A stretch of DNA of 64,000 nt, taken from a virus. The position numbers and the translations under genes are program-made. A model generated the notes under the pieces. The model had not been told where the DNA came from. It made no database searches and saw nothing but the letters and a program-made list of their open reading frames with translations. Location of the stretch: positions 62,001 through 126,000 of IMG/VR virus record IMGVR_UViG_3300009034_000002. One strand, written 5' to 3'. The first letter of the stretch is position 1. The number at the start of each line of letters is the position of its first letter. Positions 19,147 to 41,095 of the stretch are shown in pieces.

Positions 19147-20715
19147 CTATTCCTCCTTATTTAATCTTTTAACAAACTTAACTTCTTTCCACCAAACCTG
19201 AATACCGTGTGGCTTTACAACTTCTTTTGGCGGATCAAACGTTGCAACCAATTCAAAGGTGTAAACATAACATTCCTTAACTTTTGGCCACCATTTCTTC
19301 CAGTCTTCAGGTAAAATTTTATGTTGTTTAAACAACTTTTCCTTCACATCTCCAATAGGAACAGGTCCTTCCACGGTTAGTAGTTTCAAAATGCCATATA
19401 CATGATTTTCCTCTAAGAAGTATACCTCTTGACCAAGATACTTTTCAAACTTCTTCGACTTAACAATTAACGTCTTCGTTCCGTCAGCAATCATACTTGC
19501 ATGAGGCTTAACGAGGTATACACCAGGGAGTTTACGAAGTCGTGCTAATTCTTCGTCACGCCAAATTGGTTCAACCTCAACTTCTACAACTTTAGGTTCC
19601 TCTATCGGTTTAATTGGCTTTAGTAAATCCCAAGCACTTCTAACCATTTCCCCATTACGAATCTCCTTTATAACCCTTACATAAGCGTCATTCTCATTGT
19701 CAACAACATTGTGGGTCTTGTTTAGTAACACTTCCACAATTCTACTATCCTGCCGAACAAGTTCCATATCAAATTCAGTTACTTCTCTAATCAAACCCGC
19801 TTCATCCCACAAAGCTTTAAAAGACTCAACTAACTCGGGATTCCAGATCTTATTCCTTTCCCAATCCAGCCTATAATCACCTCGATTTCTTAACCTATAT
19901 ATGGCACTCAACTCAGCAAAACTTTCCTTTGCATATTCTTCAGCAGCATCTCGTGGGAAACCGCCAACTATCTTTTTCTTAAAACTTTCGGCATATTCAT
20001 TCACTGGCGTTTTTGCAAGCTTCAAGTTCTTTCTGAATTCCATTTTCAAACGTAAAGCTTTACGATTTTTCGAAAACTTCCAGAACATGTGTGCAGATTC
20101 ATGAGTCATAGCATAATTAAACAGGCCAAACTTTTTCATACGATATGTGGATAACCTTATGGTTCTTGTGATATAGTCAGCCTCACCAACAAGATCACGA
20201 GCCTTAGGAAATATTGTTGATTTAATTTTTGGTTGCAATTCAATTGCTTTAACATACCTTGTGAAACCTATCGGTAGAGTATTAAAAATGAAGGCAGTTT
20301 GATCTTTAAATGAAGCCGGCACACCTTTACCAAGTGTAATTAATCCAGAAACTCGATCTTTAATGAAAATCCGTTGTCCGGACTTTGTGGTAATCCAATG
20401 GCCCATCATTTTCAACACTTTATTAAATACAATTTTAAACAAGCGGGATACTTCATCAGCAGAATGTTCATCTAATGCAAATGAATCTTCAACAAACCAA
20501 TCCTCATCCCACATCCTCCAAATTGGTTCAACCTCAACTTCAATGATAGATTTAGATTCAGGTTTTGGCAACTGTAAAACGTTCCATGTTGACTCAATTA
20601 GTTCATCTTCCTCATTATACTTGGATACTAACTCCCAGAAGGCATTCTTCGAGCCCTCGGGAACGTAGTTGAAATCCTTATCAAGAAACGTTTTAATTTC
20701 GTCAATCTTGCTCAT
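19147..20715 (-). CDS. Zincin metallopeptidase with C-terminal ASCH/PUA-like domain
   Basis: 522 residues. Order: linker domain ending VEVEPIWR (1-65); GHWITTKSGQRIFIKDRVS motif (about 104); zincin domain with HESAH at about 205 and ESFAELS about 60 residues later, a gluzincin-like HExxH plus Glu pattern; a second linker domain (about 330-390, again ending EVEVEPIWR); and a C-terminal domain (395-522) with LVKPHASMIADGTKTLIVKSK, which resembles ASCH/PUA RNA-binding folds at low confidence. ATG overlaps the upstream stop (ATGA). Probably a virion-associated or co-injected protease; the target is unknown. Confidence 0.65.
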   Translation of the reverse strand: MSKIDEIKTFLDKDFNYVPEGSKNAFWELVSKYNEEDELIESTWNVLQLPKPESKSIIEVEVEPIWRMWDEDWFVEDSFALDEHSADEVSRLFKIVFNKVLKMMGHWITTKSGQRIFIKDRVSGLITLGKGVPASFKDQTAFIFNTLPIGFTRYVKAIELQPKIKSTIFPKARDLVGEADYITRTIRLSTYRMKKFGLFNYAMTHESAHMFWKFSKNRKALRLKMEFRKNLKLAKTPVNEYAESFKKKIVGGFPRDAAEEYAKESFAELSAIYRLRNRGDYRLDWERNKIWNPELVESFKALWDEAGLIREVTEFDMELVRQDSRIVEVLLNKTHNVVDNENDAYVRVIKEIRNGEMVRSAWDLLKPIKPIEEPKVVEVEVEPIWRDEELARLRKLPGVYLVKPHASMIADGTKTLIVKSKKFEKYLGQEVYFLEENHVYGILKLLTVEGPVPIGDVKEKLFKQHKILPEDWKKWWPKVKECYVYTFELVATFDPPKEVVKPHGIQVWWKEVKFVKRLNKEE

Positions 20716-23195
20716 TTAACCTTCTCCCACCATGGTCTACCAGGTTCAAAAATCTTAGCTCGTCCCCATATGTCTTTAAACGCTTTAATGGTTAATGGAT
20801 TTCTAGACTCCATCTGCTGCCACTGACTGGAATAGTGTTTTCTAACACGATAAAGTCCAGATAACTCAGCAAACGTCTCCGATGCGATACGTTTATGTCC
20901 CATTTTGCCAAAGTTGTCTGCAATTCGTTTAGTCAGAAACGGTTCCTTGTGCACGGCCATAGAAAAATTGTGTCTAAACGGCATCCAGTGCTTCGTAGTC
21001 AAGACATTTCTCCAAGTGTGGTGACCGCAGATATGTCCCACAACTCTTGAAGGCCTTCGTCCACCCGCGGAAAAGGCGCCTGTATATATCCTCATCACGC
21101 CGGGGCCAGAAAAATATTCAGAAAATACAGCCTTCTGCGGGGCAAGTTTAATAGCGGGTTTCAGCCACCCCGGCGTCTTAAACAGTTCTATTCGTTTCAA
21201 ATTATGTGTAAAGGCCGCCGGCATTGTGTTAAATAAGAACGCAAACTGGCCATGGGTCTGTTTTGTCACTCCACGGCCAACTTTTATCAAATTAGACACT
21301 TTATCAGGTATAAAAAACTTCTGACCAGTCTTTGTAGTAATCCAATGACCCAATTCGCCAGTTACTTTATTCTTTATAAGTGCAAATAAACGTGAAATTA
21401 TATTATATGAACTTTCACGCCAAATAGGTTCAACTTCAACTTCCTCCACTTTCGGTATCATTTCTTCAGGTTTTGTAACTTTCATTGGGATCCAAGCGTT
21501 ATTAACCAACTTGCCATCTAAATAGGTCTTTACAACCTTCAACAATGCACGTTCCGGGTCTTCAACGGGAGCAAAACTCTTGTCTAGAAACACCTCCAAC
21601 GTATCGACTGCAACATCAACTTTTTCCTCAACTTGTCGTTGTAAACGAGTGGCTTCCAACATCTCTTTAAACGCTTTCACAGTACCAGGACCCTCAGTCT
21701 GTAGTTGATTCCATAACCTTTTGTAACCCGACTTTCTGCGGTGTGCATGTAAAACTGCAATTTCCGCAAAGCTTTCATCCACCCAAGTTTCAGGCCTACT
21801 TTGTCGCATCCAATTTGCATAGGGTGAAATAAAAGGACCTTCATCACGTAATGCAGCCGCAAATTTAATATTCATCGGTTCTAGCCGTGGATTTTCAAAG
21901 ACAAGATGTCCACAATCATGAGTAATAGCATGTCGTAATCTCCCGCTCATTCTCTTAAATACAACATCATGATAAATTGTAACTTTGCCAGTTCTATAAT
22001 CAGCTAACGCAGCAGGTATCGCTTTGTAAACGTCAACAACTTTTGTTCCCGGCCACTTTTTTATTTCAATTTCTTTAATATAGCGAGTCAAGTGTGTAGG
22101 CAATGTGTTAAACAGAAACGAGTACCTATCCTTAATTCCTCCGGGAAGACCAAGGTCAACTTTAATTAGCTTTGACACTTTATCCTCAATAAAAAACCGT
22201 TGTCCAGACTTTGTAGTAATCCAATGGCCAAGTTTACCTGTTAATTTATTAATAACCAGTTTCCAAAACGCGCGTGAAATATTATGCTCATCATCGCGCC
22301 AAATTGGTTCAACCAGTACATCAACAACCTTTGGCACAATTTCCTTTTCCAATTTAACTGTTTTTAACGCAATCCATCTACTACTAATTAGTTCATCATC
22401 AATATATTCTTTCTCAACACGATACCACGCCTTTTCGAAACTATCTACAACGTTAAAGTCGTTATCAAGTAATATAGTAAGCCGTTTCGGAACTTCACGC
22501 GCCAATTCATCACCAAGTACTTCCGGCATACTTCTTACCAATTTTGCATCATTCCATAACTCCTTGAACGCGGCAACCGTTCCGGGCGCACGTTTCTCCA
22601 TGGTAATCCACTTTGGCTTAACTTTAGGATTCCTCCTTAGTCGATATATACTTGAAAGATCTGCAAAACTTTCACGATGCCATGGTTTCGTCAAACCCAT
22701 CTTCCTAAAAAGTTTGGCATATGTGGTCGGTGAAACCTTTTCCTTATTTAATGCACTCGCAAATGCCTGTTTCGCTTTCATAGCGCGAGTCGACCGCGAA
22801 AACCGCCAGTAGAAATGTGCACCTTCATGGGTCAAAACCCAGCTTGCTGTCCAGTCAGGTCTAGTTCTCGTGAAATTGGCCGGGAATAATTTTATTGTTC
22901 TTGCCTTATAAACTGCTTGTCCTATGTCCCCAGACACTATACCAGGAAAAATTTCAGACGGCCGTTCAAGTCGAATTGTTTTGAGATATCGCGTGAACCC
23001 AGAAGGTAAGGTATTGAAGATAAAACTCATCCTACCCACCTGAGTTGACCGAACACCCTCGCCAAGCGAAAATAAACCGGAAACTTTATCCTCAATGAAG
23101 AACCGTTGTCCGGACTTTGTGGTAATCCAATGGCCAAGTTTACCAGTTAATTTATTAGTAACCAATTTCCAGAAAGCTCTTAACATGGTATCCAT
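20712..23195 (-). CDS. Triple zincin-module protein, two modules lacking the catalytic Glu
   Basis: 827 residues with three tandem modules. Each has a GHWITTKxGQ motif (about 21, 321 and 616), an FNTLPxxxTRxLKxIE segment, a HxxxH site and an E(S/T)FAxL segment. Sites are HEGAH (123-127, intact), HDCGH (426-430) and HICGH (721-725). The latter two lack the HExxH glutamate, so they probably bind metal or substrate without normal catalysis. Linker domains of about 60 residues ending VEPIWR separate the modules. ATG at 23195 follows AAGGAG by 8 bases. Looks like a polyprotein; processing between modules is possible. Confidence 0.7.
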   Translation of the reverse strand: MDTMLRAFWKLVTNKLTGKLGHWITTKSGQRFFIEDKVSGLFSLGEGVRSTQVGRMSFIFNTLPSGFTRYLKTIRLERPSEIFPGIVSGDIGQAVYKARTIKLFPANFTRTRPDWTASWVLTHEGAHFYWRFSRSTRAMKAKQAFASALNKEKVSPTTYAKLFRKMGLTKPWHRESFADLSSIYRLRRNPKVKPKWITMEKRAPGTVAAFKELWNDAKLVRSMPEVLGDELAREVPKRLTILLDNDFNVVDSFEKAWYRVEKEYIDDELISSRWIALKTVKLEKEIVPKVVDVLVEPIWRDDEHNISRAFWKLVINKLTGKLGHWITTKSGQRFFIEDKVSKLIKVDLGLPGGIKDRYSFLFNTLPTHLTRYIKEIEIKKWPGTKVVDVYKAIPAALADYRTGKVTIYHDVVFKRMSGRLRHAITHDCGHLVFENPRLEPMNIKFAAALRDEGPFISPYANWMRQSRPETWVDESFAEIAVLHAHRRKSGYKRLWNQLQTEGPGTVKAFKEMLEATRLQRQVEEKVDVAVDTLEVFLDKSFAPVEDPERALLKVVKTYLDGKLVNNAWIPMKVTKPEEMIPKVEEVEVEPIWRESSYNIISRLFALIKNKVTGELGHWITTKTGQKFFIPDKVSNLIKVGRGVTKQTHGQFAFLFNTMPAAFTHNLKRIELFKTPGWLKPAIKLAPQKAVFSEYFSGPGVMRIYTGAFSAGGRRPSRVVGHICGHHTWRNVLTTKHWMPFRHNFSMAVHKEPFLTKRIADNFGKMGHKRIASETFAELSGLYRVRKHYSSQWQQMESRNPLTIKAFKDIWGRAKIFEPGRPWWEKVK

Positions 23196-23208: not shown

Positions 23209-23439
23209 TCATGTATCCCTTTCGGGCATCGGAACCTTTACAGGAATTTCTTTTTCTTCCGTTGGACCTTCCTTAGGAATGGGCTTCTCCGAAGGTAGTT
23301 CGCCAACCAAAAGAAACTCCTCACTTTCAACTTGTCCATTTTCATCCAACAAGTGTCTGACAACAAATGTAGCTTGAACTTCATCCTCAACCGGGACCAT
23401 GTTTTCATCAAAGTATGTTACAATTTGATACTCTTTCAT
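23209..23439 (-). CDS. Free-standing linker-domain protein
   Basis: 76 residues. It matches the repeated linker domain of the zincin proteins (TYFDENMVPVEDEVQATFVVRHLLDENGQVESEEF against LDxxFxxVxDxExAxxxVxKxYxDGELVxSxW) but stands alone and ends in a Pro/Glu-rich tail. ATG at 23439 overlaps the stop of the upstream gene (ATGA). It could be a detached piece of the adjacent polyprotein-like gene or a docking partner. Confidence 0.6.
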   Translation of the reverse strand: MKEYQIVTYFDENMVPVEDEVQATFVVRHLLDENGQVESEEFLLVGELPSEKPIPKEGPTEEKEIPVKVPMPERDT

Positions 23440-25133
23440 TTCCCTGCCCCTTTGTAAATTTCTTCAAAGATACTTGTAATCCCAGGACTCGACTTTTGTA
23501 ACTTCGACCACTGACTTTTGTACCGACTACGCCGATATCTATACACTACTGACATTTCCGCAAAATTCTCGGTAGTAAACAAATCTCTAAACCGTTTCGA
23601 ACCCTCTTGGCCTTTCGTACTTTTCCACAACCGTTCGTAGCGTTTAGCATATGGGGTAGCGCCCCCTTCACTTTCTGAAGCCGAAGCAAACTTTTTTAAC
23701 AAGTTGCGTTCACTGCTGCTCCGTTTACCATACCAATAAGAATGGCCAGTCTCATGTGTAATAGTATCCGCAAGTCTTCGTTTTAACCTTTTCTGTTGTC
23801 CAACGTTTATAAGCATTCTTTGTTGTTGCGGATAAAACACACCGAAAGGATGAATATCCTTTTTGCCAAGTAAAAATTGTTTCCATTTTGGCACACTTTC
23901 GGGAACCTTAACAATATGAATCTGTTTAAGGTCTCCCGTAAACCTTTGAGGTAAAACGTTAAAAGAAGTCACAACATTACCAAGATCAGTTTTGGTCAAC
24001 TTGGAATCAACAAGCATACGGTTCGAAACATGGTCCATTATACAAATACGCCTTCCATCAGGTAAGGTCACCCAATGGCCTTTCTTACCAGTTGGACATT
24101 TTATCAACTTAAATTTTGTCCCTGGATCCTCAAACTTAGGATTCGTAGCCAATCTATAACCTTCTCGTAAAGCAGCCCATGACCCAAGTGCACCCGCGCC
24201 TGCGGCTACTGGATGTGCCTTCAACACCGTCCAAACCTTACTTGCCACAGCAACAATCCTCTCAACGCATGCCTCTTCATTCTCTAACGTTTCACATTCC
24301 AATATCTGAGCACCAGTCTTTGGGACTGTTGTCTTTTCTAAGACCCAAACATCTGTGCCTTCCTCACGACTAGCTATCCAATACCCTTTTAAGCCGCCGG
24401 ACTTACACCAAAACGTCTTAACGGTTGGAGAATCCTGAATTATCGTTGCAACGCCCTTCGTCACTCGTTCCATCCAACCCGGAGTGTCTTTTGTGGGATT
24501 ACAGAACCCTCCTGGCTCACAGTAACCATCATAACAGAAAGCTTTTCGTTTCTTGCAGCGTGAAAAATTACAAAGCGTTTTCTTTTCTTCCAACGGATTA
24601 CGGAAACAAGTTAAATGAAAATGATTTTTTGAATTGTCCAAAATTCTCAAATCCCAATGGAAAAAACTAGGACCGCGTCTTGTAACTCTCCTCTTCCTAA
24701 AGTAATGATATTGGAAACAGTATGGAACCTCCGCTCGTAGTATATCAGTCACGCCCAATATATCAGTTAAAACTTGTACGTCCCCTGGTAACGAGTATAA
24801 AAAATCAACTCCATGCGGATAATCAACCAAAATAAAAGCACATTCAAACTTGTTCTCGCCTTTATGGATTGTCTTCTTTTCAATCGGCGTTAATCTTAGT
24901 TGGTCGCAAATTTTATCAACATCAGCCTCTTTAACTTCATCACCAAACTTAGAAACTCGAATGCACCAACCGGTATGATATCCGTCCTTAACAAAGAAGT
25001 ACTGATCTGGCCAAATATGCACTCTCAATTGACCAACAAGCCAAGTATTAGTACCCTCCCGTTCCCAATATTCAGGGATACGCGCAAGGAAGAATATAAA
25101 CTCTTCAGCCACCAATCTTGTCAAATCTAGCAC
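23436..25133 (-). CDS. LigD-phosphoesterase-like domain fused to zincin metallopeptidase
   Basis: About 565 residues. The N-terminal half has QYHYFRKRR followed by HWDLRI (about 142-164), which resembles the His...HxDxR active site of LigD-type 3'-phosphoesterases with an enlarged spacer. A cysteine-rich stretch (CNFSRC, CYDGYC, FC) follows. After GHWVTLPDGRRICIMDHVS comes a zincin domain with HETGH (460-464) and ENFAEMS. I chose GTG at 25133, 4 bases after AAGGAGG; another GTG at 25157 has a poor SD. Joining a nucleic-acid end enzyme to a protease suggests a virion-delivered multifunctional protein. Confidence 0.6.
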   Translation of the reverse strand: MLDLTRLVAEEFIFFLARIPEYWEREGTNTWLVGQLRVHIWPDQYFFVKDGYHTGWCIRVSKFGDEVKEADVDKICDQLRLTPIEKKTIHKGENKFECAFILVDYPHGVDFLYSLPGDVQVLTDILGVTDILRAEVPYCFQYHYFRKRRVTRRGPSFFHWDLRILDNSKNHFHLTCFRNPLEEKKTLCNFSRCKKRKAFCYDGYCEPGGFCNPTKDTPGWMERVTKGVATIIQDSPTVKTFWCKSGGLKGYWIASREEGTDVWVLEKTTVPKTGAQILECETLENEEACVERIVAVASKVWTVLKAHPVAAGAGALGSWAALREGYRLATNPKFEDPGTKFKLIKCPTGKKGHWVTLPDGRRICIMDHVSNRMLVDSKLTKTDLGNVVTSFNVLPQRFTGDLKQIHIVKVPESVPKWKQFLLGKKDIHPFGVFYPQQQRMLINVGQQKRLKRRLADTITHETGHSYWYGKRSSSERNLLKKFASASESEGGATPYAKRYERLWKSTKGQEGSKRFRDLFTTENFAEMSVVYRYRRSRYKSQWSKLQKSSPGITSIFEEIYKGAGK

Positions 25134-25147
25134 GGGTCCTCCTTCAA

Positions 25148-25345
25148 CTAAAACCACCCTTTTTCGGCCTTTCGTTGACGGTTACAAACTTTGTTACATA
25201 CGACGGTAGTTCCTTTCCAGGTTGTAAAAGCACCGCCGAAACATTTACATCGTCTACACTCGTCAAGAGATATGTTACCTTTTTTACACTTTACTTTGCC
25301 ATCAACTACCGGAATATGTAAATACTTACGAAGTTTAAAAATCAT
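25148..25345 (-). CDS. Small cysteine-rich protein
   Basis: 65 residues, basic, with six cysteines in CKKG, CRRCKC and CNKVCN, consistent with one or two zinc sites. ATG at 25345 overlaps the upstream stop (ATGA), so its translation is coupled to the phosphoesterase-like gene. No family recognised; a nucleic-acid-binding accessory role is possible. Confidence 0.6.
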   Translation of the reverse strand: MIFKLRKYLHIPVVDGKVKCKKGNISLDECRRCKCFGGAFTTWKGTTVVCNKVCNRQRKAEKGWF

Positions 25346-26364
25346 GCCCTTGTCTCTTTTCGACGCCCTAAAGCATTTAATACCCGCTGTATAAAATCTT
25401 CATCCATTCCATGAATCTCAAAGTACTCCCAAATATCTTCAACACTAAGAAATTCATCCTCATCATACTCTAACAAGTTTTCGGAATTTGATATACGAAT
25501 TACGTCTTCCTTAAGGAAGAACGAGCGTAAACCCTTCCTACGATCCAACGCTTGATCTCCCGTTACTTCCCAAAACTTCAAATCATCAGGAACTTGATCA
25601 CGTAACTCCCGTGGCATGGCCGAAACACCTTTTGGAGGTAACCATCTCTTCAGAATTGCCCTACGTGACAATACATACGGACTTTGATCAACCGCTTGTA
25701 TAATCCACCAGGAAATTGTGCCTGGTTGGATCTCAGGTGGCATTGCAGGAGGAAGTTTTGCACCTGGTTTCAACTTTAAAGGCTTTGGTGTTTCTTGCAA
25801 CTTCTTAACATCCTTTGGGGTTAGCTTCCTCGCAAGTCGTACAACGTACCTCCCAGGTTTTAATACTTTATTATGATGCAGCCAATATTCATGGAAATAT
25901 ACTTTTTGGGCCCCGAATTCAATTTGTCCAGAATCAACTTGTTTCATAAAGCCATCCAACGTAGGAGTTGCGCCAACTGTGCCCTTTTTAAACTTCGCTT
26001 CCTTAATTTCCATCCAAGCTTTCGGCTCGGGCGCTTTACTCGTGCCAAGCAGGTAGGTTTGAACAACCTTACCGCCCCTTCGTTGTCGGAGTTTAAACTT
26101 ACCTGTGTCTAAATCAATCTTATAACACGCCGGCTTCTTCCAAATTAAATCTTTAAACTCCTGTAAAGTTGTCGGACGTTTCCACCTGCATTCTTTCCAA
26201 ATGAACCATGTCCAGCCAAGCACGAGATCCGGGTCACCGAATTCGGCTCTAAAATCAACATGTACAACGGTATGCAAGTGAAACTGAATCGACCAGTTAT
26301 AAATTTTATCTTCAGACGGATTAGTCATATATGGATTGATCCTTACAATTTCGTCGTTACTCAC
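25342..26364 (-). CDS. LigD-type 3'-phosphoesterase-like protein
   Basis: 340 residues. The N-terminal domain carries His29, His35, Asp37 and Arg39 in FHLHTVVHVDFR, the same H-x5-HxDxR spacing as the active site of LigD 3'-phosphoesterase domains, which trim 3' ribonucleotides and phosphates. A downstream EFGAQKVYFHEYW segment may supply further His/Tyr residues. The C-terminal third (about 230-330) is an uncharacterised helical region. GTG at 26364 has AGGAGG 6 bases upstream and overlaps the end of the ligase-like gene by 8 bases, so they are probably co-translated. Confidence 0.65.
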   Translation of the reverse strand: MSNDEIVRINPYMTNPSEDKIYNWSIQFHLHTVVHVDFRAEFGDPDLVLGWTWFIWKECRWKRPTTLQEFKDLIWKKPACYKIDLDTGKFKLRQRRGGKVVQTYLLGTSKAPEPKAWMEIKEAKFKKGTVGATPTLDGFMKQVDSGQIEFGAQKVYFHEYWLHHNKVLKPGRYVVRLARKLTPKDVKKLQETPKPLKLKPGAKLPPAMPPEIQPGTISWWIIQAVDQSPYVLSRRAILKRWLPPKGVSAMPRELRDQVPDDLKFWEVTGDQALDRRKGLRSFFLKEDVIRISNSENLLEYDEDEFLSVEDIWEYFEIHGMDEDFIQRVLNALGRRKETRA

Positions 26365-27313
26365 TGCCTTCCTCCTCTTTACCCTTTACAGCTAAAAGAT
26401 GTGCACGTTTTGCAACTTCAATTACTTCTTTAAAGCTATTTGGTAATTTTGCTTCTTCAAGGATTTCATCCACCGCCGTTTCATAAAGTCGCAATCGATT
26501 GCCTTTCTTCTCTTTATATAGGTTTGCGGTATGGAACCTGATAACCAAGATATCGCCGGGCTTGGCAAAGAGCTTGGTGTTGAAAGTACGTCCGCTAGCG
26601 GTTATTTTTCTACCGGCTATAGTCTTAATTGTGTTGGATTGAACGCCGTCATCAGTATCAAATCGTACGCCAAAGTCGTAATTATAGACGCCGTGTGTTT
26701 TAGTTCGAACACGTCGCCAAACCATTACGAGAATCTGTATATATTTCTTCAACTTAAATACATTACGCGTCCTTCCAGTTAGTTCATAAGGAGTATCCAA
26801 TTTTATCATGGCCCCTTCCAGTTGAGGAACACTAAAGAAGTCTTGAATTGCTTGATCCAACGCCACTTTAGTTTCAGCAACTTTCGTAACACACTTATTA
26901 AAATGCGAAAGTTCTGGGTCCAAATCAGCGACTCGATGTTGTTTAAACTTGATCTTATCGAGATATGCCAAACGTTCACTCAGGGGTAACTTATGGATAT
27001 CCTTGCCAAACCAAATACAATCAAACACATTAAGAACAATCCATTTATCCTCAGGAGTGCCGATCTCAAATAAACTACCGCTTGTCACCTCCCTCGGCTG
27101 ATGTTTCCCTTCCCTCCACATTTCACATTCACTCAGCAGAATGCATTCACCAGGGGTACCCGGTAAATGAACTAGTTCTTCAACACAGGACGGCAAACGG
27201 ACCGTCACATCTTGTCCATCGTCCGTAAGGATTTGTACCTTATTGCCACGTTTGTACACAATCAACATTATACCGTCGTACTTTCCCTGAGCAAACAATT
27301 TCAATTTAGCCAC
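26357..27313 (-). CDS. ATP-dependent DNA ligase-like nucleotidyltransferase
   Basis: 318 residues. Ligase motifs in order: I, K11-Y-D13-G14 (nucleotidyl-lysine site); III, LLSECEMW; IIIa, VFDCIWFGKDIHKLPLSERL; IV, LEGAMIKLDTPYELTGR; V, FKLKKY. An OB-like segment (about 200-270) follows. The spacing fits the small ATP-dependent ligase core of LigD and archaeal/phage enzymes, and no key residue is lost. The first motif starts unusually close to the N-terminus. GTG at 27313 has AGGGGG upstream. It lies between a pol-beta-type nucleotidyltransferase and a phosphoesterase-like gene, together resembling separated LigD parts. Confidence 0.75.
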   Translation of the reverse strand: MAKLKLFAQGKYDGIMLIVYKRGNKVQILTDDGQDVTVRLPSCVEELVHLPGTPGECILLSECEMWREGKHQPREVTSGSLFEIGTPEDKWIVLNVFDCIWFGKDIHKLPLSERLAYLDKIKFKQHRVADLDPELSHFNKCVTKVAETKVALDQAIQDFFSVPQLEGAMIKLDTPYELTGRTRNVFKLKKYIQILVMVWRRVRTKTHGVYNYDFGVRFDTDDGVQSNTIKTIAGRKITASGRTFNTKLFAKPGDILVIRFHTANLYKEKKGNRLRLYETAVDEILEEAKLPNSFKEVIEVAKRAHLLAVKGKEEEGSE

Positions 27314-27330
27314 TTACGTAATACCCCCTC

Positions 27331-28512
27331 TTAACTCCACTCCAAACCTTTCTTTTTTGCAAACTCGTCTAAAAAGTTCCAGAAGTCTTCGCTTGACCAT
27401 TTTCTGCTCTTCTGCACGCCAATAAACGCTAATTCGGAGTGACGCCGGTAAAAGAACCAAAATAATCTCAACTTATCGTTTGTCTTACACCACTCAGCCT
27501 GTTTAACCTGCTCTTTCGTAGTCACCGTACGCGAAAGATCAAATTCTGTAACGTTGGCTGACATTTGAATAACATGATTCTCTTTGTTTACACGTTCCAG
27601 GTAAAATTGAAAAATTAGCTTCGCGCCCTCGGGTGGCTCAGCACACACAACCTGTACCCTCGGCCAAAGATGATGTGGAAGTTGTCGGTAAATTCTAAAT
27701 TTAAACGGCGTAATGAAATGAACCGTAACAGTCTCAAGTGGCACATAAACCTTCAAAATGTTTAAATTGTCGCGGTTACTTTCCACATTTGCATAAGCAA
27801 AGATGTTTAAATCAACATTTTCATCGCCAACCGTTTCAATAAAATCAGGCAACGTTATCCTCTCTTTAGGTACAACAGTTGACGGAAAGACTGGTGCAAG
27901 TTCACCTCTACAAGGCTCGCATTTCTTGGGTCCACTACTAACACGTTTAACGTTTAAATTATACAATGGAAGAAAACAAGTAAATGGACCAAGAAAGTTA
28001 TCTCCGAAGAAGTGTGTAGGAATATCACTCCAACGCTTTGATAATGCATCTGTTACAATATCATAAAAGTTGACTCCTTCTATATCCTTAATCAACACGT
28101 CAACATCGCCCTCAGATGTGCCCCAATTACAAACGCCTCCTACTGCGCGAACATAAAGGAACTTCAACCTAAAACCTTGCAGTTTGTCAATGAAAAATGT
28201 AAACTCATTGAACGTCCTTAAGGATTCAGGCAACGTCTTCCCTAGTGGTTTATCCGTATTGACTTCGTAGTTGAGTTCATGCATCTTCTTGATAATTTGT
28301 TTATACAAATGCACTATATGCTTCTTCGTCATTTCATCGCCCTTCTTAACTTTAAATGAATTCAGAATTATATCTTTCCTCAATCTTAGTTTCTTACCGG
28401 CGGCAAGCTTCTTATATAAAGCATGCAAAATGGCGTGTGTGTTAAGCAGTTGTTTCTTAAGCAACGATGTATAATCCTTAGCAGGCGTAGTAAGTTCCTT
28501 CTGAATTGGCAT
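27331..28512 (-). CDS. Pol-beta superfamily nucleotidyltransferase
   Basis: 393 residues. AVGGVCNWGTSEGDVDVLI carries Gly125-Gly126, nine residues, then Asp136-x-Asp138, exactly the hG[GS]-x9-13-Dh[DE]h signature of the pol-beta nucleotidyltransferase fold. The N-terminal 110 residues are helical and basic. The C-terminal 150 include FQFYLERVNKENH and a Trp/Phe-rich end. There is a CEPC motif near 205. ATG at 28512 follows GGGGTG by 8 bases. As the first gene of the ligase/phosphoesterase run, it may add nucleotides to DNA ends; an RNA substrate is the alternative. Confidence 0.65.
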   Translation of the reverse strand: MPIQKELTTPAKDYTSLLKKQLLNTHAILHALYKKLAAGKKLRLRKDIILNSFKVKKGDEMTKKHIVHLYKQIIKKMHELNYEVNTDKPLGKTLPESLRTFNEFTFFIDKLQGFRLKFLYVRAVGGVCNWGTSEGDVDVLIKDIEGVNFYDIVTDALSKRWSDIPTHFFGDNFLGPFTCFLPLYNLNVKRVSSGPKKCEPCRGELAPVFPSTVVPKERITLPDFIETVGDENVDLNIFAYANVESNRDNLNILKVYVPLETVTVHFITPFKFRIYRQLPHHLWPRVQVVCAEPPEGAKLIFQFYLERVNKENHVIQMSANVTEFDLSRTVTTKEQVKQAEWCKTNDKLRLFWFFYRRHSELAFIGVQKSRKWSSEDFWNFLDEFAKKKGLEWS

Positions 28513-28870: not shown

Positions 28871-30721
28871 TTAATTTGTTGCTTCCCAATAAACGGTTCC
28901 GCCACTAGCATAGTTCGCTATGGTAACTGTAAAGCCATCGTTATCCATGCTAGTATAGGTCGCTCGAAAGCGTATTGTCCCATCACCATCTGAAAGAGCA
29001 AAGCAATTAGAGTTTCCAGAGAAACTCCTAATATCACCATCCACGCCTGTCTGGTGTGCCCAACAAATTACACGTTGAGTACCGTCATCTACCATACTGC
29101 CAACACCGAAAACTATAGCAGTCTGAGTACCTGTAGCATAAGTAACCAGGAAAGATACCTTTTTGGGTTTGAAGTTAAGTCCAGATACGGCAATAGCTCC
29201 GTCCCCCGAAACAACGAAACTACCACTAGTTACTTTATGTTCACTGCGACCGACCCAACCTTTCGTTTGCATTCCAGCAAATCTAACAAATGTGTCAGAA
29301 TGAAAAGGCACAAAGTAGATGTATCTACCATCAAAAGCTGCACCCGCATAAGCGTGGTCTAAAGCTGCACTACCTTGGGCAGTGGACATGGACATTATCT
29401 GCCAGTCGGATAAGTTTGTGAAAGCACCTTGAGTATCGAATCTAACAAATGTATCCGAATTATCAGGTACAAAGTAGACATATCTTCCATCGAAGGTTGC
29501 ACCCAAGTATGCTTCATTTAATGCCACACTACCTTGTACGGTGGACATGGACATTTGTTGCCAGTCTAATACATTTGTGAAAGTTCCTTGAGTATCGAAT
29601 CTAACAAATGTGGCAGAATTCTTGGGTACAAAGTAGATGTATCTACCATCAAAGGTTGTATACTTATAAGAACCCGAAGCCACACCACCTTGCACAGTGG
29701 TCTTGGACATTTGTTGCCAGTCAGATGCATTTGTGAAAGTTCCTTGAGTATCGAATCTAACAAATGAACCAGCATACTCAGGTACAAAGTAGACATACCT
29801 GCCATCAAAGGATGCACCGTAGTATGCTTCATCACCGGTCGCGCCTCCTTGTGCGGTGGACATGGACATTTGTTGCCAGTCGGAGGAATTTGTGAAAGTT
29901 CCTTGAGTATCAAATCTAACAAATGTGTTAGCAGAATAAGGCACAAAGTAGATGTATCTACCATCAAAGGATGCGCCAATGTAAGCATGATCTAAAGCTG
30001 CGCCGCCTTGCGCAGTGGACATGGACATTCGTTGCCAGTCAGATTCGGTTGTGAAAGTTCCTTGAGTATCGAATCTAACAAATGTGTCAGACCGATAAGG
30101 TACAAAGTAGACATATCTTCCATCAAAGGTTGTGCCAGTGTATGGAGGATTAGTACCCGGAGCCGCTCCTTGGGCGGTGGATATGGACATTTGTTGCCAG
30201 TCGGATGCGTTTGTGAAAGTTCCTTGAGTATCGAATCTAACAAACGTGTCCGAATTCTTAGGTGCAAAGTAGATGTATCTACCATCAAAGGTTGCATCCA
30301 AGTATGCATAGTCTATTGGTGCACTACCTTGTGCAGTTGACATGGCCATTCTAGTCCAGTTAGCTTCTTTCGTTAAATCTGTAATTGTGTGGATTAAACT
30401 CTTTGCTAATTCAAACGACTCAGTTTCAAAGCCAAAGTTCTTTGCTGCTTTCATAATTTCAAGTATATCTAAGTGGTCATGGAATGGTTCTGAAACGGGC
30501 ATAACAGAAGACCACTCCACTGAAGTCAAATTAGCTGTTAACGCGTCAGAAGTTGGTTTTAGTGTTACAGTAGTATCTGCTGAGTATGATGAACTATAAA
30601 TAGTTCCATACTTATAACCGTCAACTCCACAGTTGCACTTAACTTTCCGATTGGCGACGAATATGCTCGTCTGATCACCGCTTACAGTAAAAGATGTTGA
30701 TGAGACGTAAGATGCATTCAA
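28871..30721 (-). CDS. Tail fibre-like protein, seven-repeat propeller plus C-terminal domain
   Basis: 616 residues. The N-terminal domain (1-130) has FTVSGDQTSIF, NRKVK, YGTIYSSSYS and TTVTLKP, common in phage tail-fibre proteins. Seven repeats follow, each with FDGRY(I/V)YFxP and FVRFDTQGTFT, and the count of seven fits a closed seven-bladed beta-propeller. The C-terminal domain (about 490-616) has SGSFVVSGDGAIAVSGLNF and ends ASGGTVYWEATN, a type often found at receptor-binding tips. The start is TTG at 30721, 10 bases after GGAGG; the paralogue at 30830 also uses TTG. Confidence 0.75.
   Translation of the reverse strand: MNASYVSSTSFTVSGDQTSIFVANRKVKCNCGVDGYKYGTIYSSSYSADTTVTLKPTSDALTANLTSVEWSSVMPVSEPFHDHLDILEIMKAAKNFGFETESFELAKSLIHTITDLTKEANWTRMAMSTAQGSAPIDYAYLDATFDGRYIYFAPKNSDTFVRFDTQGTFTNASDWQQMSISTAQGAAPGTNPPYTGTTFDGRYVYFVPYRSDTFVRFDTQGTFTTESDWQRMSMSTAQGGAALDHAYIGASFDGRYIYFVPYSANTFVRFDTQGTFTNSSDWQQMSMSTAQGGATGDEAYYGASFDGRYVYFVPEYAGSFVRFDTQGTFTNASDWQQMSKTTVQGGVASGSYKYTTFDGRYIYFVPKNSATFVRFDTQGTFTNVLDWQQMSMSTVQGSVALNEAYLGATFDGRYVYFVPDNSDTFVRFDTQGAFTNLSDWQIMSMSTAQGSAALDHAYAGAAFDGRYIYFVPFHSDTFVRFAGMQTKGWVGRSEHKVTSGSFVVSGDGAIAVSGLNFKPKKVSFLVTYATGTQTAIVFGVGSMVDDGTQRVICWAHQTGVDGDIRSFSGNSNCFALSDGDGTIRFRATYTSMDNDGFTVTIANYASGGTVYWEATN
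29275..30345 (-). repeat. Seven coding repeats of the propeller-like region
   Basis: Seven in-frame units of about 140 bp within the gene at 28871. Each codes for FDGRY(I/V)YF, FVRFDTQGTFT and MSMSTAQG segments, with high nucleotide similarity to each other and to the block at 30845. Confidence 0.85.
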
Positions 30722-35353: not shown

Positions 35354-35959
35354 TTAAACCCCCCCAATTATAATTGCGTTGTAAAACGCAGTATGCCATT
35401 CACGATCGAAGTTTGCTTTAGAGTTACATGACTTACACAGTGTTATTAAATTGCTAGGATCGCAGTTCTTTTTGTTATAGTCAATATGATGTCTAGTCAA
35501 AGCACGCGACTTTCCGTTGCACATGGGATTCTGGCAATGGTAACCGTCGCGTTCTTTTATCATCTCTTTAAACTCTTTAAAGTTCCAATCGAAACAATAT
35601 GGTTCTGCTGAAATACCGCCTTTCCAGTTCCAACTGTTTGGACCACAAAACTTACCTTTAAGTGATTCAGACCTTTTACGATTTGACTCTGGAGTATGTT
35701 GTTTACCATACCAAGGATGATCGGGACCACACATTCCATACATTGGATGATCTGGACCACACCTTCCGAACATTGGATTATTGGGACCTTTCTGTGAAAT
35801 AAATATTTTGGAACGATGTAAGTTGCAATTACATGCTTTGTCCCTTATACTCGACCAAGACCGACCTGGGAGAACTGCTAACAGCTTTTCCTTTGTCCAA
35901 TCGTAGTATCCCCTCTCCAAAATTTCTAACTCAATTTTATTCCAACGTTTTCCCTTCAT
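35354..35959 (-). CDS. HNH homing endonuclease with NUMOD3 repeats
   Basis: 201 residues. The N-terminal part has a helix-turn-helix-like segment (KIELEILERGYYDWTKEKLLAVLPGRSWSSI) and repeated GPxxPMFG/GPDHPxYGK motifs typical of NUMOD3 DNA-binding elements. The C-terminal HNH nuclease shows CQNPMC, RHHIDYNKKNCDPSNLITLCKSCN. It is a free-standing selfish element between the portal gene and the next structural gene. ATG at 35959 overlaps the portal stop by one base (TAATG). A further in-frame ATG at 35995 lies inside the portal gene. Confidence 0.88.
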   Translation of the reverse strand: MKGKRWNKIELEILERGYYDWTKEKLLAVLPGRSWSSIRDKACNCNLHRSKIFISQKGPNNPMFGRCGPDHPMYGMCGPDHPWYGKQHTPESNRKRSESLKGKFCGPNSWNWKGGISAEPYCFDWNFKEFKEMIKERDGYHCQNPMCNGKSRALTRHHIDYNKKNCDPSNLITLCKSCNSKANFDREWHTAFYNAIIIGGV

Positions 35960-38900
35960 TACATCTCGCCCATCTCCTTTAGTGCTGTCTCCCATGCGTC
36001 GATCAACTCAATCGTTAGAGGATCTGTACCTAATTTTGGATCTTTCTTTATGATTCGTCTCAATTCCAACAACAATCTCTTTTTCATTTCTGGATCTAAA
36101 ATCTCCTCCGACCTCAACAATTTTTCTATCATCGCTTTTCTTAATGCTAAAAGTTTGGTAACGGTCGTCTTCGGGAGTGTTTCCTTCAACACGAATTGAC
36201 GTACAATAGCTTCAATTTCATCTACCACTTGTACAGCACTTCCGCGAGCAACTACAGGAGATGTTACTGACAAAGCAAATGCATTAGCAAAAATATCTGA
36301 TGGATCCGCTAAACAATATGATCTTAAACTCAATGGATATCCAGACTTCATCCCATCCATCATACTTGAAAGCTTTGTTGAGTCAATAAAGTGCCACGGG
36401 TCCTTTAGTACCTTAACGTACTCTCTCTCCAACCACCTAACATTTTTCGGTGTTAACTTGTAAACCTTTGCGTTAATAATTAATGAACTAAGGAGCCACC
36501 TTCTTAATTCAAGCACGCGAGCCCTGGCTTCAGGATTTGGAGCAATATAAATCTTCCAAATATGGTGTCCCATTTCATGTGCCGTTGGATACACCTCTGG
36601 AACCGTAAATATTGAATATTTCGACTTAACACCAAAGTTTCTTAATAGAGTGGGATCGACCACGGTAGTCTCAGAATATTTGCACAGTGCAAAGTTATCA
36701 TGCACAACTAAAGCTCGTAAGTCCTTAAAAAACTCCTTCCGTCGTAAACCTGGATACCGGGTTAACATTTCCTCAAGCCACGTAAGACCCTCTCTTCGTT
36801 GTGCTGCGGTCATCGTCTTTGTAAAAGCAGGCGTGACCAATTTTAAAATGTCCGGAATCTTATGGTCCGCCCTCCAAGGTACACGAGCCGCCTTTCTGAC
36901 TAATCGAATATACTCCCTGGGATGGATCTTATTAACATGAGTCCAAAGAAATTCTTGAAATACTGGTGCCCACGGTAACCTTCTGAAGCCTTCATAGTCA
37001 GTAATAAACCAAGAAAAGTTCTTTTTCATAAATTCGTCAATATTAAAAAACGACTTGGGATCCATCCACCAATCAATATCAAGTTTATGCTTTCTAAAGA
37101 ACGAAGGTAATTTTGGATTACGTCCAGCAATTACAATGTTACGAAATTCCTTTTCAACAAATGCATAACGTTCTGGCCCAACCAGTTTTACTGGAACCTT
37201 TACCTTTAATGTCCTCGCAGCATCGTCTAACATGTTTGTCGTAATCTTCTTGGCCTCCCTTAAATACACTCTATAATACTCATCTCGTATGTCAAACATT
37301 ATTTTACCAAATACTGAATTCACCAAATCAGGAATCTGGGCTTCAGCTCGTTTCCACGGTTGTAAAGCTTCAACAAACTGAGTTACATGTGAATCCTTAA
37401 ATGGCTTCGGTACCATTATAGTGCGTATTCCATCCTTCATGCTAGATCTAACTGTCCTTAAACCGGGCACATCCTTAACAACGACTCCAGCCCAATATTC
37501 CTTGCGCATAGCACCCGGAATACGATTCCACAAAAGTTGTGCAGTTGCTGTATTCGAAAGTTTAAATTGAGGTATAAAGCTTTCCCATTTAAAAGTTGGA
37601 TCGCCCTTCAGCCAACGCTTAACATTAAACAGTCGTCCAACAAATTTACTCTCTTGAGCATACTCTCTCAAGACTGGAATTAAAATACACCTGCAATTCG
37701 TGCAACAAGGCAAATCAGCACTTTTCGGCCTCATTGGCAACTCATAAGCAGAAAATTCAATTCCAGCTAATTGTGCGCATACTTTACAGGAATTACCGTC
37801 GCCCATGCCAACCCAAAGGAACCTTCTGTATTCCCGAGGCACAGAAATGGCTTTTAAACCTTCAATCAACGGGATATTAGCAACATCCCCCAAAACAGAC
37901 GCATACAATGCTACCTGCCATACCCAACCAGTAAGTGTGGTATTAATCTTATTTAATAAATCTGTACGTTCCTCAGGCGAAGCATCAGATAATTGTCTGA
38001 CGGAAGGATACAAATGTCTCTCCGCATAAGATCTCGGCCAGTCAAGTTTCTCCTCCGTTAGTTCTCGTTTTTGAGTACTTAAATCTACACTACCCCAGTT
38101 AACACCGCCTACCGGTTTGTAATAATGATCTGAATTCCATTTTCCTAAATCGGTAGCCTTATTAAAGTAGTCATCTACAATAGGTGACCACTCATCAATC
38201 ATATTATTTAATTGGGTTTCGGCATCATCGGCTACGGCTCTTGTAATTAAACCACGTTGGACAACCAAGCCTTCTACCGATTTTTTAAACTTAAAGTATG
38301 AGGTGTACAGTTTACCACGATATTCGTGAATTAATTTACGTCTCTTCTCAATAAATTCTTGTTCGTGTGGTCCGTAAACTCGACTTCCAGTTAAAGCACT
38401 AATCCGGTAGTTCTTAGCGCGTGCTTCAACAGGTTCTTTCTTTGCCTGTCGTTCGAGTGGAATTGGTTCTTGCTCTTCCTCTACTTCCTCTACTTCAACA
38501 GCTCTCAGTTCTTCGACTTTTCCTTCGCCTAATTCTTTTGGAGTTGTTAATCCTGTAGGTGACTTTACATATAGTATATCGCCGCCCTTCACAGGAGCCA
38601 AACTCCAAACCTTACGACCTGCATTTAATGTAATTAAACCAGAGGTCACCAATCCTTGGACTTCTTCAGGCCTTATTCGTTTTGTAAGTACAAACTTTGC
38701 TTTCATGCCGGCCAACAAGAATGTGTTTAACTTTTCCTCAAGATGTTCCGAAAGTAAATCTACCAAGGACGAAGTTTTATCAAGACCGTCAAAGAAGCCA
38801 AAACCCTTCTCAATAACCTTATCACAATAGTCAATAATTGGTTTTACACTTAACTCACGGAAGTTATTATCAAAAGGAACCCATCCCAATTTTTCAACGC

Positions 38901-39660
38901 CGTCAATGATACGCATTGCATCATCGGTTTGTAATGCGGTACCAAAAGACTTTTCGGCTCTATCTCGAGCTTCTTTACCAATTTCAGACATATGCAAAAC
39001 GCCAAAAGGATTCTTTCGTTTCGAACCCTGCTTCGACCAGGAACTTAACCAATTGAGTACTCCAGAAATCTCACTTGCAATTGAACAAATAATTGGCTCT
39101 CCTCGCTTAGTGTATGTCTTTGGAAAACCTTTCACAAATACAATTTCATCAATGGAAAAGTCGATCTCTTTCTTCTGTCCATTCACGGTTGCAATTTGTT
39201 TATAACCTGTGATAGTTCCAAACGTATCCATCTTCTCTTTGAAAGTTGAAGCATCGCGGCAAAAAACTTCTACCACACTATTAGCATTAGAAAGTACTTT
39301 CTGTAGTACGCCTTTATCAAGAACTAGGATGTCGGATAAGAATTGCCAAAGAACATCAAAGAATGTTTCGCGTCCCGAATTTGCAACGTCATTTAAAAGA
39401 AATCCTTCCTTCTTTCCAACAAAACCCCAATTCTGATCAAGGAGTGTCTGTTTACAAACTTGGTCAATACATCTTCGTACTGCAGGCATCCTGAAATAAC
39501 AATTTCTTAACACTTCAGGCGACCACTCTCCTTCTACAGCTTGAACAAACTCCCACAACATCGTCCAAGCGGTATGTGCTCCTTTCTTTTCTTCGCGGAT
39601 AATCTCGTTTGGTTTCTCAAACGGTTTCTTCAAATTCCTGAAAAAATATCCCCAATCCAT
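35959..39660 (-). CDS. Portal-MuF-zincin fusion protein
   Basis: 1233 residues, far longer than a portal. Residues 1-390 fit an HK97-type portal (SIDEIVFVKGFPKTYTKRGEP, long C-terminal helices). After a Glu-rich linker (about 380-410), residues 430-680 form a MuF-like head-morphogenesis domain with GNSCKVC (about 618), LP and CTNCRC (about 653). The C-terminal half holds a zincin-type metallopeptidase with YPTAHEMGHHIW at about 1033, then helices. The portal is a dodecameric DNA gate; a tethered protease could mature head proteins or act after entry. ATG at 39660 has GAGGTGA. It follows terL by 13 bases. Confidence 0.82.
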   Translation of the reverse strand: MDWGYFFRNLKKPFEKPNEIIREEKKGAHTAWTMLWEFVQAVEGEWSPEVLRNCYFRMPAVRRCIDQVCKQTLLDQNWGFVGKKEGFLLNDVANSGRETFFDVLWQFLSDILVLDKGVLQKVLSNANSVVEVFCRDASTFKEKMDTFGTITGYKQIATVNGQKKEIDFSIDEIVFVKGFPKTYTKRGEPIICSIASEISGVLNWLSSWSKQGSKRKNPFGVLHMSEIGKEARDRAEKSFGTALQTDDAMRIIDGVEKLGWVPFDNNFRELSVKPIIDYCDKVIEKGFGFFDGLDKTSSLVDLLSEHLEEKLNTFLLAGMKAKFVLTKRIRPEEVQGLVTSGLITLNAGRKVWSLAPVKGGDILYVKSPTGLTTPKELGEGKVEELRAVEVEEVEEEQEPIPLERQAKKEPVEARAKNYRISALTGSRVYGPHEQEFIEKRRKLIHEYRGKLYTSYFKFKKSVEGLVVQRGLITRAVADDAETQLNNMIDEWSPIVDDYFNKATDLGKWNSDHYYKPVGGVNWGSVDLSTQKRELTEEKLDWPRSYAERHLYPSVRQLSDASPEERTDLLNKINTTLTGWVWQVALYASVLGDVANIPLIEGLKAISVPREYRRFLWVGMGDGNSCKVCAQLAGIEFSAYELPMRPKSADLPCCTNCRCILIPVLREYAQESKFVGRLFNVKRWLKGDPTFKWESFIPQFKLSNTATAQLLWNRIPGAMRKEYWAGVVVKDVPGLRTVRSSMKDGIRTIMVPKPFKDSHVTQFVEALQPWKRAEAQIPDLVNSVFGKIMFDIRDEYYRVYLREAKKITTNMLDDAARTLKVKVPVKLVGPERYAFVEKEFRNIVIAGRNPKLPSFFRKHKLDIDWWMDPKSFFNIDEFMKKNFSWFITDYEGFRRLPWAPVFQEFLWTHVNKIHPREYIRLVRKAARVPWRADHKIPDILKLVTPAFTKTMTAAQRREGLTWLEEMLTRYPGLRRKEFFKDLRALVVHDNFALCKYSETTVVDPTLLRNFGVKSKYSIFTVPEVYPTAHEMGHHIWKIYIAPNPEARARVLELRRWLLSSLIINAKVYKLTPKNVRWLEREYVKVLKDPWHFIDSTKLSSMMDGMKSGYPLSLRSYCLADPSDIFANAFALSVTSPVVARGSAVQVVDEIEAIVRQFVLKETLPKTTVTKLLALRKAMIEKLLRSEEILDPEMKKRLLLELRRIIKKDPKLGTDPLTIELIDAWETALKEMGEM

Positions 39661-39673: not shown

Positions 39674-41095
39674 TTAAATTGCCCATACTGATATACGTCC
39701 ACGTTCGGCAAGTGAATCTAACGAACGTACCGCCTCTCTTGCAAAAAAACTCGCAAGTACGCAGTCTTTATACTTCGTATTTGGCCAATATAACACTTCA
39801 TTCATAAAGCCGCACCAACCACACTGACATTCAACCGAGTGTTTAAATTTTGGAACTCGCCACATGCGATTTGCCATTTCCATAAACATCGAAGCAAGTC
39901 CCAACTGTGGATCCCATTTCGATTTACCCGTTGTGAAATAAGCCTTAAGCGGCAACTTCTTCATCTCAGAAGTCCATTCCAATAAGGCCTTTTGATATGT
40001 ATTACTTTCAACCAATATTATTTCAGATTTGAACTGTTCATAAGTGTCAATTATTACCCGACCCTGATTAGGCGAACCTTGTCGTAAACGTTTAATATCT
40101 ATAGGAATTCTAATTCCATTCTCATCTACCGCAATTGTAAACACAACAGTCCAAGCCTTATCCCTCGAGATTGCCGGATCAACCCCTGTATACTTAGGGA
40201 AATCCTTGGTAAAGTCCACGACGTTTGAAATTGTTAATGGATCAAATTCATCCATTAACATATCCTTCGTTACAGTAGATTGAGGCTCACCATAAGGTAT
40301 TAATCTGTATGCCCTATTGGCCGATTCCTCATCTTCCTCAAATTCTGCAATCAATGCCTCACGAGGCCAAATTTCCGGCCACAGCGGTGTAAAGTCTTCA
40401 TCAATTATATATACAAACTTCTTGAAACGTTTACTTTCCCTCCAAATGTGCATGGTCAGATCATCTTCAAACCATGGAGTTCCAATATAAATAACTTTAT
40501 TCCACCGAGGATCCGTCATCTTCATCCATGTATCGTCCCAGCTCCGCCTAATCGACTTACGTAATCCAGCCGTACAGCTGTTTCGACGGTCTACAACATC
40601 ATCAGCAATGAGAACATCACAACGACCACCAGTTACAGAAGAAGTAATTCCATTAACCTCAAGAGTTGCATCCTTCAAAAATTGATCTCTCTGTACAGTT
40701 AACTTGTTACTTGTCCAAGGATCCCCAGGCCTAATATTGGGGAAAATCTTGTGATACTTCTCATTCTGTTCAAAATTGGTAAGGTGCCACTGACCAATCT
40801 CACTCCCCTTGTCCGAACTACATGTGGCTACCTTAACCCTCAAATCAGGATTATTGCCAATCTTCCAAGAAACCCAATGTAAAGTTATAACGCTACTCTT
40901 ACCATGCCCGCGTGGAGCAGCAATAAATATAAAATCGTTTTCCTCTATTGCTTGGAGCCACTCCAGATGCATAGGACACAATGGCATGCCAAATGCATAT
41001 GATTGAAAAGCCGCAGGATCAGTCCGACAAGTTTCAACAAGTTCGGTCTCTAGCTCCCGTTTCCTCTTTATTAACTTTCGATTATCGGAGCCCAT
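39674..41095 (-). CDS. terL: Terminase large subunit
   Basis: 473 residues, DNA-packaging ATPase and nuclease. Walker A is APRGHGKSS (60-68), Walker B CDVLIADDVV (159-168), and the coupling motif follows in YIGTPW. The RNase H-like nuclease starts with YTGVDPAIS (Asp306), with later acidic residues in ILVESN and near YKDCVLA. The C-terminal CQCGWCGF adds a possible zinc site. The ATG overlaps the terS stop by one base (TAATG). Together with the portal this fixes the window as a tailed phage. Confidence 0.93.
   Translation of the reverse strand: MGSDNRKLIKRKRELETELVETCRTDPAAFQSYAFGMPLCPMHLEWLQAIEENDFIFIAAPRGHGKSSVITLHWVSWKIGNNPDLRVKVATCSSDKGSEIGQWHLTNFEQNEKYHKIFPNIRPGDPWTSNKLTVQRDQFLKDATLEVNGITSSVTGGRCDVLIADDVVDRRNSCTAGLRKSIRRSWDDTWMKMTDPRWNKVIYIGTPWFEDDLTMHIWRESKRFKKFVYIIDEDFTPLWPEIWPREALIAEFEEDEESANRAYRLIPYGEPQSTVTKDMLMDEFDPLTISNVVDFTKDFPKYTGVDPAISRDKAWTVVFTIAVDENGIRIPIDIKRLRQGSPNQGRVIIDTYEQFKSEIILVESNTYQKALLEWTSEMKKLPLKAYFTTGKSKWDPQLGLASMFMEMANRMWRVPKFKHSVECQCGWCGFMNEVLYWPNTKYKDCVLASFFAREAVRSLDSLAERGRISVWAI

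Follow-up and report, generated by a model that had tools for sequence, protein, structure and literature searches.

A candidate Ku-independent, LigD-like DNA end-healing and sealing set encoded near the head genes of tailed viruses and perhaps packaged in the capsid

We examined 64,000 nucleotides of viral DNA (the window; positions 62001-126000 of the 173,109-base IMG/VR record IMGVR_UViG_3300009034_000002), in which four neighbouring genes encode a nucleotidyltransferase-like protein (NTase), an ATP-dependent DNA ligase and two proteins with domains related to the phosphoesterase (PE) of LigD, here called PE1 and PE2 (Table 1). The explanation that we favour, with moderate confidence, is that these genes constitute a Ku-independent, LigD-like machine for healing and sealing DNA ends, built within the head module and most likely packaged in the capsid. 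An earlier note on this DNA had described a dispersed LigD-like kit. The motifs that it named are present in the genes to which it assigned them: GG, nine residues and DVD (G125, D136, D138) in the NTase, motifs I, III, IIIa, IV and V in the ligase, H29-x5-H35-x-D37-x-R39 in PE1, and a second HxDxR in gene 23436, inside a PE-like domain at residues 144-276. Its term "dispersed" did not survive the comparison with relatives.

When GenBank phages were searched by tblastn, the ligase found its best relative (E 3e-25), and PE1 its sole one (E 3e-20), in ANMV-1, a virus from methane-seep sediment whose host is an uncultured archaeon; both matches fall in a single gene, AJP62006 (KP703175), annotated "ATP-dependent DNA ligase" and 866 residues long. 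Its translation carries the NTase signature ahead of the ligase and further sequence beyond PE1; by BLASTP the window NTase aligns to residues 52-130 (E 5e-6) and PE2 to residues 741-864 (3e-11). Judging from these alignments, the four genes of the window correspond to consecutive, collinear parts of one ANMV-1 protein. Window proteins also match other viral contigs (ligase 2.2e-41; PE1 5.1e-35; PE2 2.3e-14, in locus L009; NTase 7.5e-9, in L006), and since the parts match one ANMV-1 protein in order, and other viral contigs too, the similarity exceeds chance. The parts are fused in ANMV-1 and encoded by four genes in the window; in ANMV-1 the R of H.D.R in PE1 is replaced by M, PE2 lacks H.D.R altogether, and the zincin-like domain found behind PE2 in the window is not attached. 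Among the matches listed (in one search 15 of 24 records), no GenBank phage other than ANMV-1 matched beyond the ligase, the others covering part of it; Bacillus phage genes named ligD were among the tblastn matches. Neither a search of viral contigs with the whole ANMV-1 protein as query nor a first genome scan for relatives of the kit found any.

Further loci were gathered by ligase and PE profile scans, so finding those parts in a locus does not count as independent evidence, and 26 remained once duplicates and plain ligases had been taken out. Discarded were the window's own genes in a 241,415-base IMG/VR record (L001-L003, L005), to which the window ligase, PE1 and NTase show 100% protein identity; near copies of L009 (L010, L023) and of L024 (L025); L022, L026, L035 and L036, which are the same contigs as L009, L006, L008 and L007; and loci with a ligase only (L017-L021, L042). 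Some kinship is left in the set (L013 with L032; L030, L031 and L041 with one another; L012, L014 and L016 from one metagenome-assembled genome), several contigs are cut at the locus, and the hidden Markov models (HMMs) used for counting parts were iterated on the same set, window included. The PE2 model cross-matched PE1 in the count for L009, L027, L029 and L039; true PE2 follows PE1 in each of them by HMM matches.

By HMM matches, no locus of the 26 departs from the order NTase-ligase-PE1-PE2, and 25 hold at least two parts (in L040 only ligase and XkdF entered the count, PE1 being weak there at 6e-5). All four parts occur in 16 of the 26, and 11 have them as a single open reading frame (ORF). 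Given this fixed order and these fusions, we rejected the idea of a dispersed kit; the window holds the split form of an often fused protein. At the junctions there are a gap of 17 nt between NTase and ligase genes, an overlap of 8 nt between ligase and PE1 genes, and a 65-codon ORF that bridges the PE1 and PE2 genes by overlapping them by 4 and 10 nt. In addition, the prohead protease XkdF (Peptidase_S78_2) was found in seven of the 26 loci and forms the C-terminus of the ligase ORF in six (Pfam 1.5e-28 in L006, 1e-25 in L008); in L033 all four kit parts and XkdF share one ORF of 1766 residues. Counted by record, XkdF exceeded the cut-off in 6 of 17. Proteases of the XkdF class act within the procapsid, and the fusions lend support to the earlier suggestion of a kit that has its place in the capsid.

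The genomic surroundings point the same way. The note's placement of the kit in a run of structural genes is borne out by portal and terminase genes upstream in the window and by head families in relatives. The latter were scanned with PHROGs over the full set of 41 ORFs upstream and over 54 of 56 downstream, two distant ANMV-1 ORFs being omitted, with the window excluded and no control set; the figures are not locus counts, as a single protein may match several families. Upstream ORFs matched portal families most (nine members in the top family), followed by the terminase large subunit (five) and minor head proteins, and also matched GTP cyclohydrolase, QueE-like and endonuclease families. 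Downstream, the top two families are major head proteins (six members each), and head maturation protease families have two members each. A portal gene stands immediately upstream of the kit in L009, L012 and L039, and the ANMV-1 kit gene is adjoined by one that matches portal families (2e-30) and is annotated as a MutT-like hydrolase; the neighbour in L033 is of minor-head/MuF type, a major head protein lies downstream in L009 and L031, and a head protease in L012. The upstream neighbour in L034 is TGT-like. As a separate observation, another ANMV-1 protein beside the kit (L004:5868-9368, 1166 residues) consists mostly of cysteine-rich repeats, with a C-terminus that looks MuF-like by eye.

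The prohead-protease fusions and the head-module neighbours are the chief grounds for thinking that the kit enters the procapsid, is released there and travels with the DNA, and it is plausible that it is carried in the virion. One may also consider that it is a late-infection repair or recombination set, acting in the cell on replicating or packaging genomes and absent from the particle, with its location among head genes reflecting shared regulation. The window kit is indeed unfused to any structural protein, and its gene run includes glycosyltransferase and HNH genes. Against it stand the ligase ORF joined to XkdF in six loci and the matching neighbours in relatives, which are mostly of head-module families, and we regard this alternative as unlikely.

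The AlphaFold model of PE1 (mean pLDDT 80.5) gave six top Foldseek rows that are all LigD-type PE (3p43, 3n9b twice, 3n9d, 3p4h and 5dmp; E 4.5e-5 to 0.029, probability at least 0.99; the seventh row has 0.03), and VIA-align superposed it on 3p43, which is 124 long, with Z 13.5 and 1.8 A over 121 residues. The six LigD PE entries score Z 8.9-13.5 and the next family Z 3.0, so that the predicted structure confirms a LigD-type PE fold. Profile comparison with LigD_N, represented by sequences from five genomes, gave 96.6% in hhalign (5.1e-10). Other searches were less telling: the PE1 profile found four PDB chains, all LigD-type PE, at weak E-values (0.043 to 0.52); four of 19 PE1 members match LigD_N (best 2.1e-7) and four match a transglutaminase family (best 7.9e-4); a LigD_N scan gave no match in the window's own record, five matches at E <=0.01 in 20 records and one above the cut-off; and Pfam and PHROGs scans of the window proteins alone offered no usable family for NTase, PE1 or PE2. 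The metal triad H, H, D is kept in 19 of 19 aligned rows and the R in 18 (there are two 19-row alignments, one without ANMV-1 and L027 and the other without L037, L038 and L040). The earlier note had named lack of a ligase or PE fold, or of the motif residues in close homologues, as what would speak against its reading; the PE fold is present in the PE1 model and the triad is invariant. In the stand-alone archaeal PE proteins (3p43, 3p4h, 5dmp; the first and second are the best structural matches) fold and triad are shared, whereas window PE1, a longer protein that bears insertions and is extended at its C-terminus, is part of a conserved set.

That PE2 is likewise related to LigD-type PE is confirmed by profiles: 3p43 among PDB sequences at 6.8e-8, and in hhalign LigD_N at 96.1% (2.9e-9) and PE1 at 94.7%, with an NTase control at 0.1%. 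The note's two phosphoesterase-like proteins thus hold up, one by predicted structure and the other by profiles. As most relatives have lost the PE2 active site, this domain probably serves in end binding or in keeping the machine together. A feature that the earlier note missed is the zincin-like domain at the C-terminus of gene 23436-25157, copies of which recur in the next two genes. Recognised by similarity among the window copies and by HExxH, it totals five copies in three adjacent genes, with HExxH broken by loss of the E in two, both in gene 20712-23195. These look like a metallopeptidase that was duplicated and then decayed.

The identity of the ligase, on motifs and profiles, is certain, the note's assignment being upheld by Pfam (Table 1). 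Every readable row (23 of 23) has motif I intact and all 24 rows keep motif IV, and the window protein begins almost at motif I, without an N-terminal DNA-binding domain. The family profile matches PDB entry 4eq5 best (5.9e-26), DNA ligase 1 entries at about 1e-21 and the ligase of Rv0938, which we take to be LigD, less well (1vs0, 4.6e-14). A role in RNA repair was rejected, since the profile matches DNA ligases. The kit ligase is the sole ATP-ligase match in the 173-kb record (its match lies at 88747-89304 in one of the two records and at 89991-90548 in the other), and an NAD-dependent ligase is encoded at 533-1282 of the 241-kb record, near one record end. With that second ligase, if this end of the record is viral, the kit enzyme need not be the replication ligase, and a plain replication ligase was rejected on this ground and on gene location.

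The first protein of the set is a probable nucleotidyltransferase. The note had a pol-beta-type enzyme in place of the LigD polymerase; the signature stands, and the identity, drawn from it and from weak profile matches, stays at probable. G, D and D of the pol-beta-superfamily pattern G[GS]-x(8-13)-DxD are invariant in 20 of 20 aligned rows, and two of 20 members match Pfam NTP_transf_2 (best 0.0048). In hhalign the family reached 41.7% with PolX palms, spanning only 24 columns round the signature, and 20.9% with MNT-type NTases; as yardsticks, MNT and PolX, both accepted members of the superfamily, gave 40.0% and negative controls less than 1%. Among PDB sequences the profile had a single weak match, an NTase (E 0.56), and a trimmed profile had none; a fold search with the poor AlphaFold model (pLDDT 49) found no match. 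A short helical motif ending like E-M-x-R-R-G-x-x-H was noted by eye before the window NTase and recurs in kit-region proteins of L006, L007 and L009; motifs of this type gave Pyr_excise matches, mostly weak.

Several observations weigh against a head-built, catalytically complete machine. About 7.4 kb, with HNH, glycosyltransferase and fibre-like genes, separate the window kit from the portal gene; PHROGs identified no major head protein among the ten window proteins scanned; and the window has no XkdF fusion, the only XkdF match of its record being one that lies elsewhere, stays below the cut-off and covers positions 82-121 of 126. Two tested neighbours in L037 match no head family. L007, where the NTase is fused directly to PE1 (L007:8426-10999), has no ATP-ligase match in its 76.8-kb record and by its sequence is a reduced kit. 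As for active sites, the NTase has D as its third acidic residue in 18 of 21 rows, and the window, L012 and L014 have N there; ligase motif VI of the OB domain, sought with a simple pattern, was seen in eight of 24 rows, the window not among them; and the full H.D.R of PE2 is found in three of 22 rows (one being the window) and lost in 19. In LigD PE the metal triad is His42, His48 and Asp50 and the phosphate site Arg52, His84 and Tyr88, the last two both being required in the Pseudomonas enzyme, according to the available part of PMC8656161. By alignment, PE1 has E (14 of 19 rows), Q (2) or other residues (3) in place of His84 and W in place of Tyr88 in all 19. PE1 is, as far as its sequence tells, a PE-fold relative with a non-standard active site and not a standard LigD PE.

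The loss of these PE1 residues, together with the decay of PE2, could mean that the PE folds are mostly structural, binding DNA ends or sitting in the capsid interior, with at most the ligase being catalytic, for example on nicks at annealed cohesive ends. We consider this very unlikely, as the near-complete conservation of H, H, D and R in PE1 is difficult to explain without metal binding. Moreover, in the PE1 segment EFGAQK..HEYF, E-Y is invariant in 19 rows and H is kept in 13, and these residues could stand in for the lost equivalents of His84 and Tyr88.

LigD, of bacteria and archaea, joins POL, PE and LIG and acts with Ku. What the viral kit shares with it is a PE fold and an ATP-dependent ligase in one end-processing set; it differs in having a protein with the NTase signature where LigD has the primase-polymerase, two PE domains, replaced His84 and Tyr88 in PE1, a ligase profile that ranks other DNA ligases above Rv0938, a location among viral structural genes, and no Ku found. 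The earlier note saw no Ku, and none was found in 19 records (PF02735 in neither the window's own record nor 18 others); the LigD primase-polymerase (PF21686) was found in none of 17. Some of these records may be incomplete, and a Ku supplied by the host would be outside the reach of the search. Mycobacteriophages use their own Ku with the host LigD, and African swine fever virus has polymerase X and a ligase. Contigs with whole or partial kits were binned as Methanosarcinales, Methanophagales, Euryarchaeota and Omnitrophota; the hosts of these viruses probably include both archaea and bacteria, provided that the binning is correct. A literature search found no description of the kit, and papers beyond its reach may hold one; PMC5567305, one of the papers listed, contains "LigD" and "prohead protease" once each. 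The main text of the ANMV-1 paper contains neither "ligase" nor "portal" (PMC4372165), and the available part of a jumbo-phage paper has "LigD" 0 times and does not describe the kit (PMC7824862). None was found in the accessible portions of PMC5512222, PMC10159854, PMC7719229 and PMC8656161.

LigD works in the order PE, which makes a 3'-OH, polymerase, which fills, and ligase, which seals (PMC8656161, in the part available). The viral kit would follow this logic with its NTase standing for the polymerase. Under the explanation we favour, a protease of the head (XkdF for relatives, and for the window perhaps its zincins) would free or trim the kit parts within the capsid, and these would enter the cell together with the DNA. 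PE1 would convert 3'-phosphate or 3'-ribonucleotide ends to 3'-OH, the NTase would then fill or extend the end, and the ligase would close the nick, either ahead of viral gene expression or in its absence. The purpose may be the mending of damaged genomes, the closing of ends or the undoing of host nicking. More tentatively, with somewhat less than even confidence, we propose that a family of tailed viruses of archaea and bacteria makes this machine as the front part of a prohead protease precursor, matures it in the capsid and injects it with the genome, so that it would be a virion-borne, Ku-free counterpart of LigD mending or closing viral DNA ahead of all viral gene expression.

A related possibility is that the kit is mainly a counter-defence, an injected "polyvalent" set that reseals nicks and clears blocked 3' ends left by host nucleases on incoming DNA. 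In relatives, LigT-type phosphoesterase (1.2e-9), DNA methylase (2.3e-8), TGT-like and MuF domains are fused or adjoining, the last with a zincin-like peptidase match below the cut-off, and the window has its zincins; such themes have been described for polyvalent phage proteins, which are multidomain, encoded with portal/MuF genes and zincin-like peptidases and predicted to be capsid cargo, the peptidases being proposed to process multidomain polypeptides (PMC5512222, available part). On the other side, no specific defence is indicated, and a repair set of DNA ligase, LigD-type PE and pol-beta-type enzyme is not described in that part of the paper, where RNA ligases are the only ligases mentioned. 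We find this alternative rather unlikely as the principal role; it overlaps with packaged end repair and does not exclude it. From the TGT-like, QueE-like, GTP cyclohydrolase and other matches, DNA modification of the 7-deazaguanine type may be encoded beside the kit. TGT-like, DNA methylase, LigT-type and homing-endonuclease domains were located at L006:7853-11758, L006:3873-6353, L008:2-3445, L009:1816-4014 and L034:2725-3975.

Table 1. Coordinates of the kit and of other features in the window (aa, amino acids)
Feature	Position	Strand	Details
NTase-like protein, 393 aa	27331..28512	-	GG-x9-DxD; NTase domain ~27919-28191; weak partial domain repeat ~27637-27717
ATP-dependent DNA ligase, 318 aa	26357..27313	-	Pfam DNA_ligase_A_M 1.6e-12
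PE1, LigD-type phosphoesterase-fold protein, 340 aa	25342..26364	-	PE domain ~25516-26337
Cysteine-rich ORF of 65 aa between PE1 and PE2 genes	25148..25345	-	ORF list
PE2 domain (~24330-24728) and C-terminal zincin-like domain (~23442-24116, HETGH)	23436..25157	-	
Zincin-like domain, three tandem copies: HEGAH, HDCGH, HICGH	20712..23195	-	
Protein with one further zincin-like copy (HESAH)	19147..20715	-	
Portal protein, weak MuF-type part	35959..39660	-	upstream, same gene run as kit
Terminase large subunit	39674..41095	-	PHROGs 7.2e-51

Besides the terminase and portal protein, the window encodes DnaB, a helicase and PolA, a family A DNA polymerase with a uracil-DNA-glycosylase domain at its N-terminus (46403-48718), and by its gene content the source is a tailed-virus genome. 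The portal assignment comes from PHROGs (1e-8 over residues 6-243), and the MuF-type part from weaker PHROGs matches at residues 613-672 (E 2.8e-5 to 0.023) and from Pfam Phage_Mu_F (0.088). The cysteine-rich ORF had no family match in Pfam and PHROGs scans of the window proteins. Positions 15957-17279 encode a protein that contains part of the catalytic domain of glutamyl/glutaminyl-tRNA synthetase (residues 5-110, 2.2e-20), and 28871-30721 a fibre-like protein with repeat units, seen by eye, around YIYFVP..SDTFVRFDTQGTFT and a weak beta-propeller Pfam match. A BFVD match to A0A516LT18 was also recorded (E 1.7e-4).

To our knowledge, few prokaryotic viruses carry DNA repair enzymes in the particle. 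A kit of fixed order, present in contigs binned with methane-seep archaea and a bacterium and in some of them fused to the protease that matures the capsid, would offer a natural Ku-less model for LigD chemistry, and the fused kits, such as those of L012 (921 aa) and L030 (1042 aa), are single-chain proteins amenable to expression and testing. Such a kit could also explain how genomes that sit for long periods in sediment are mended at the time of entry.

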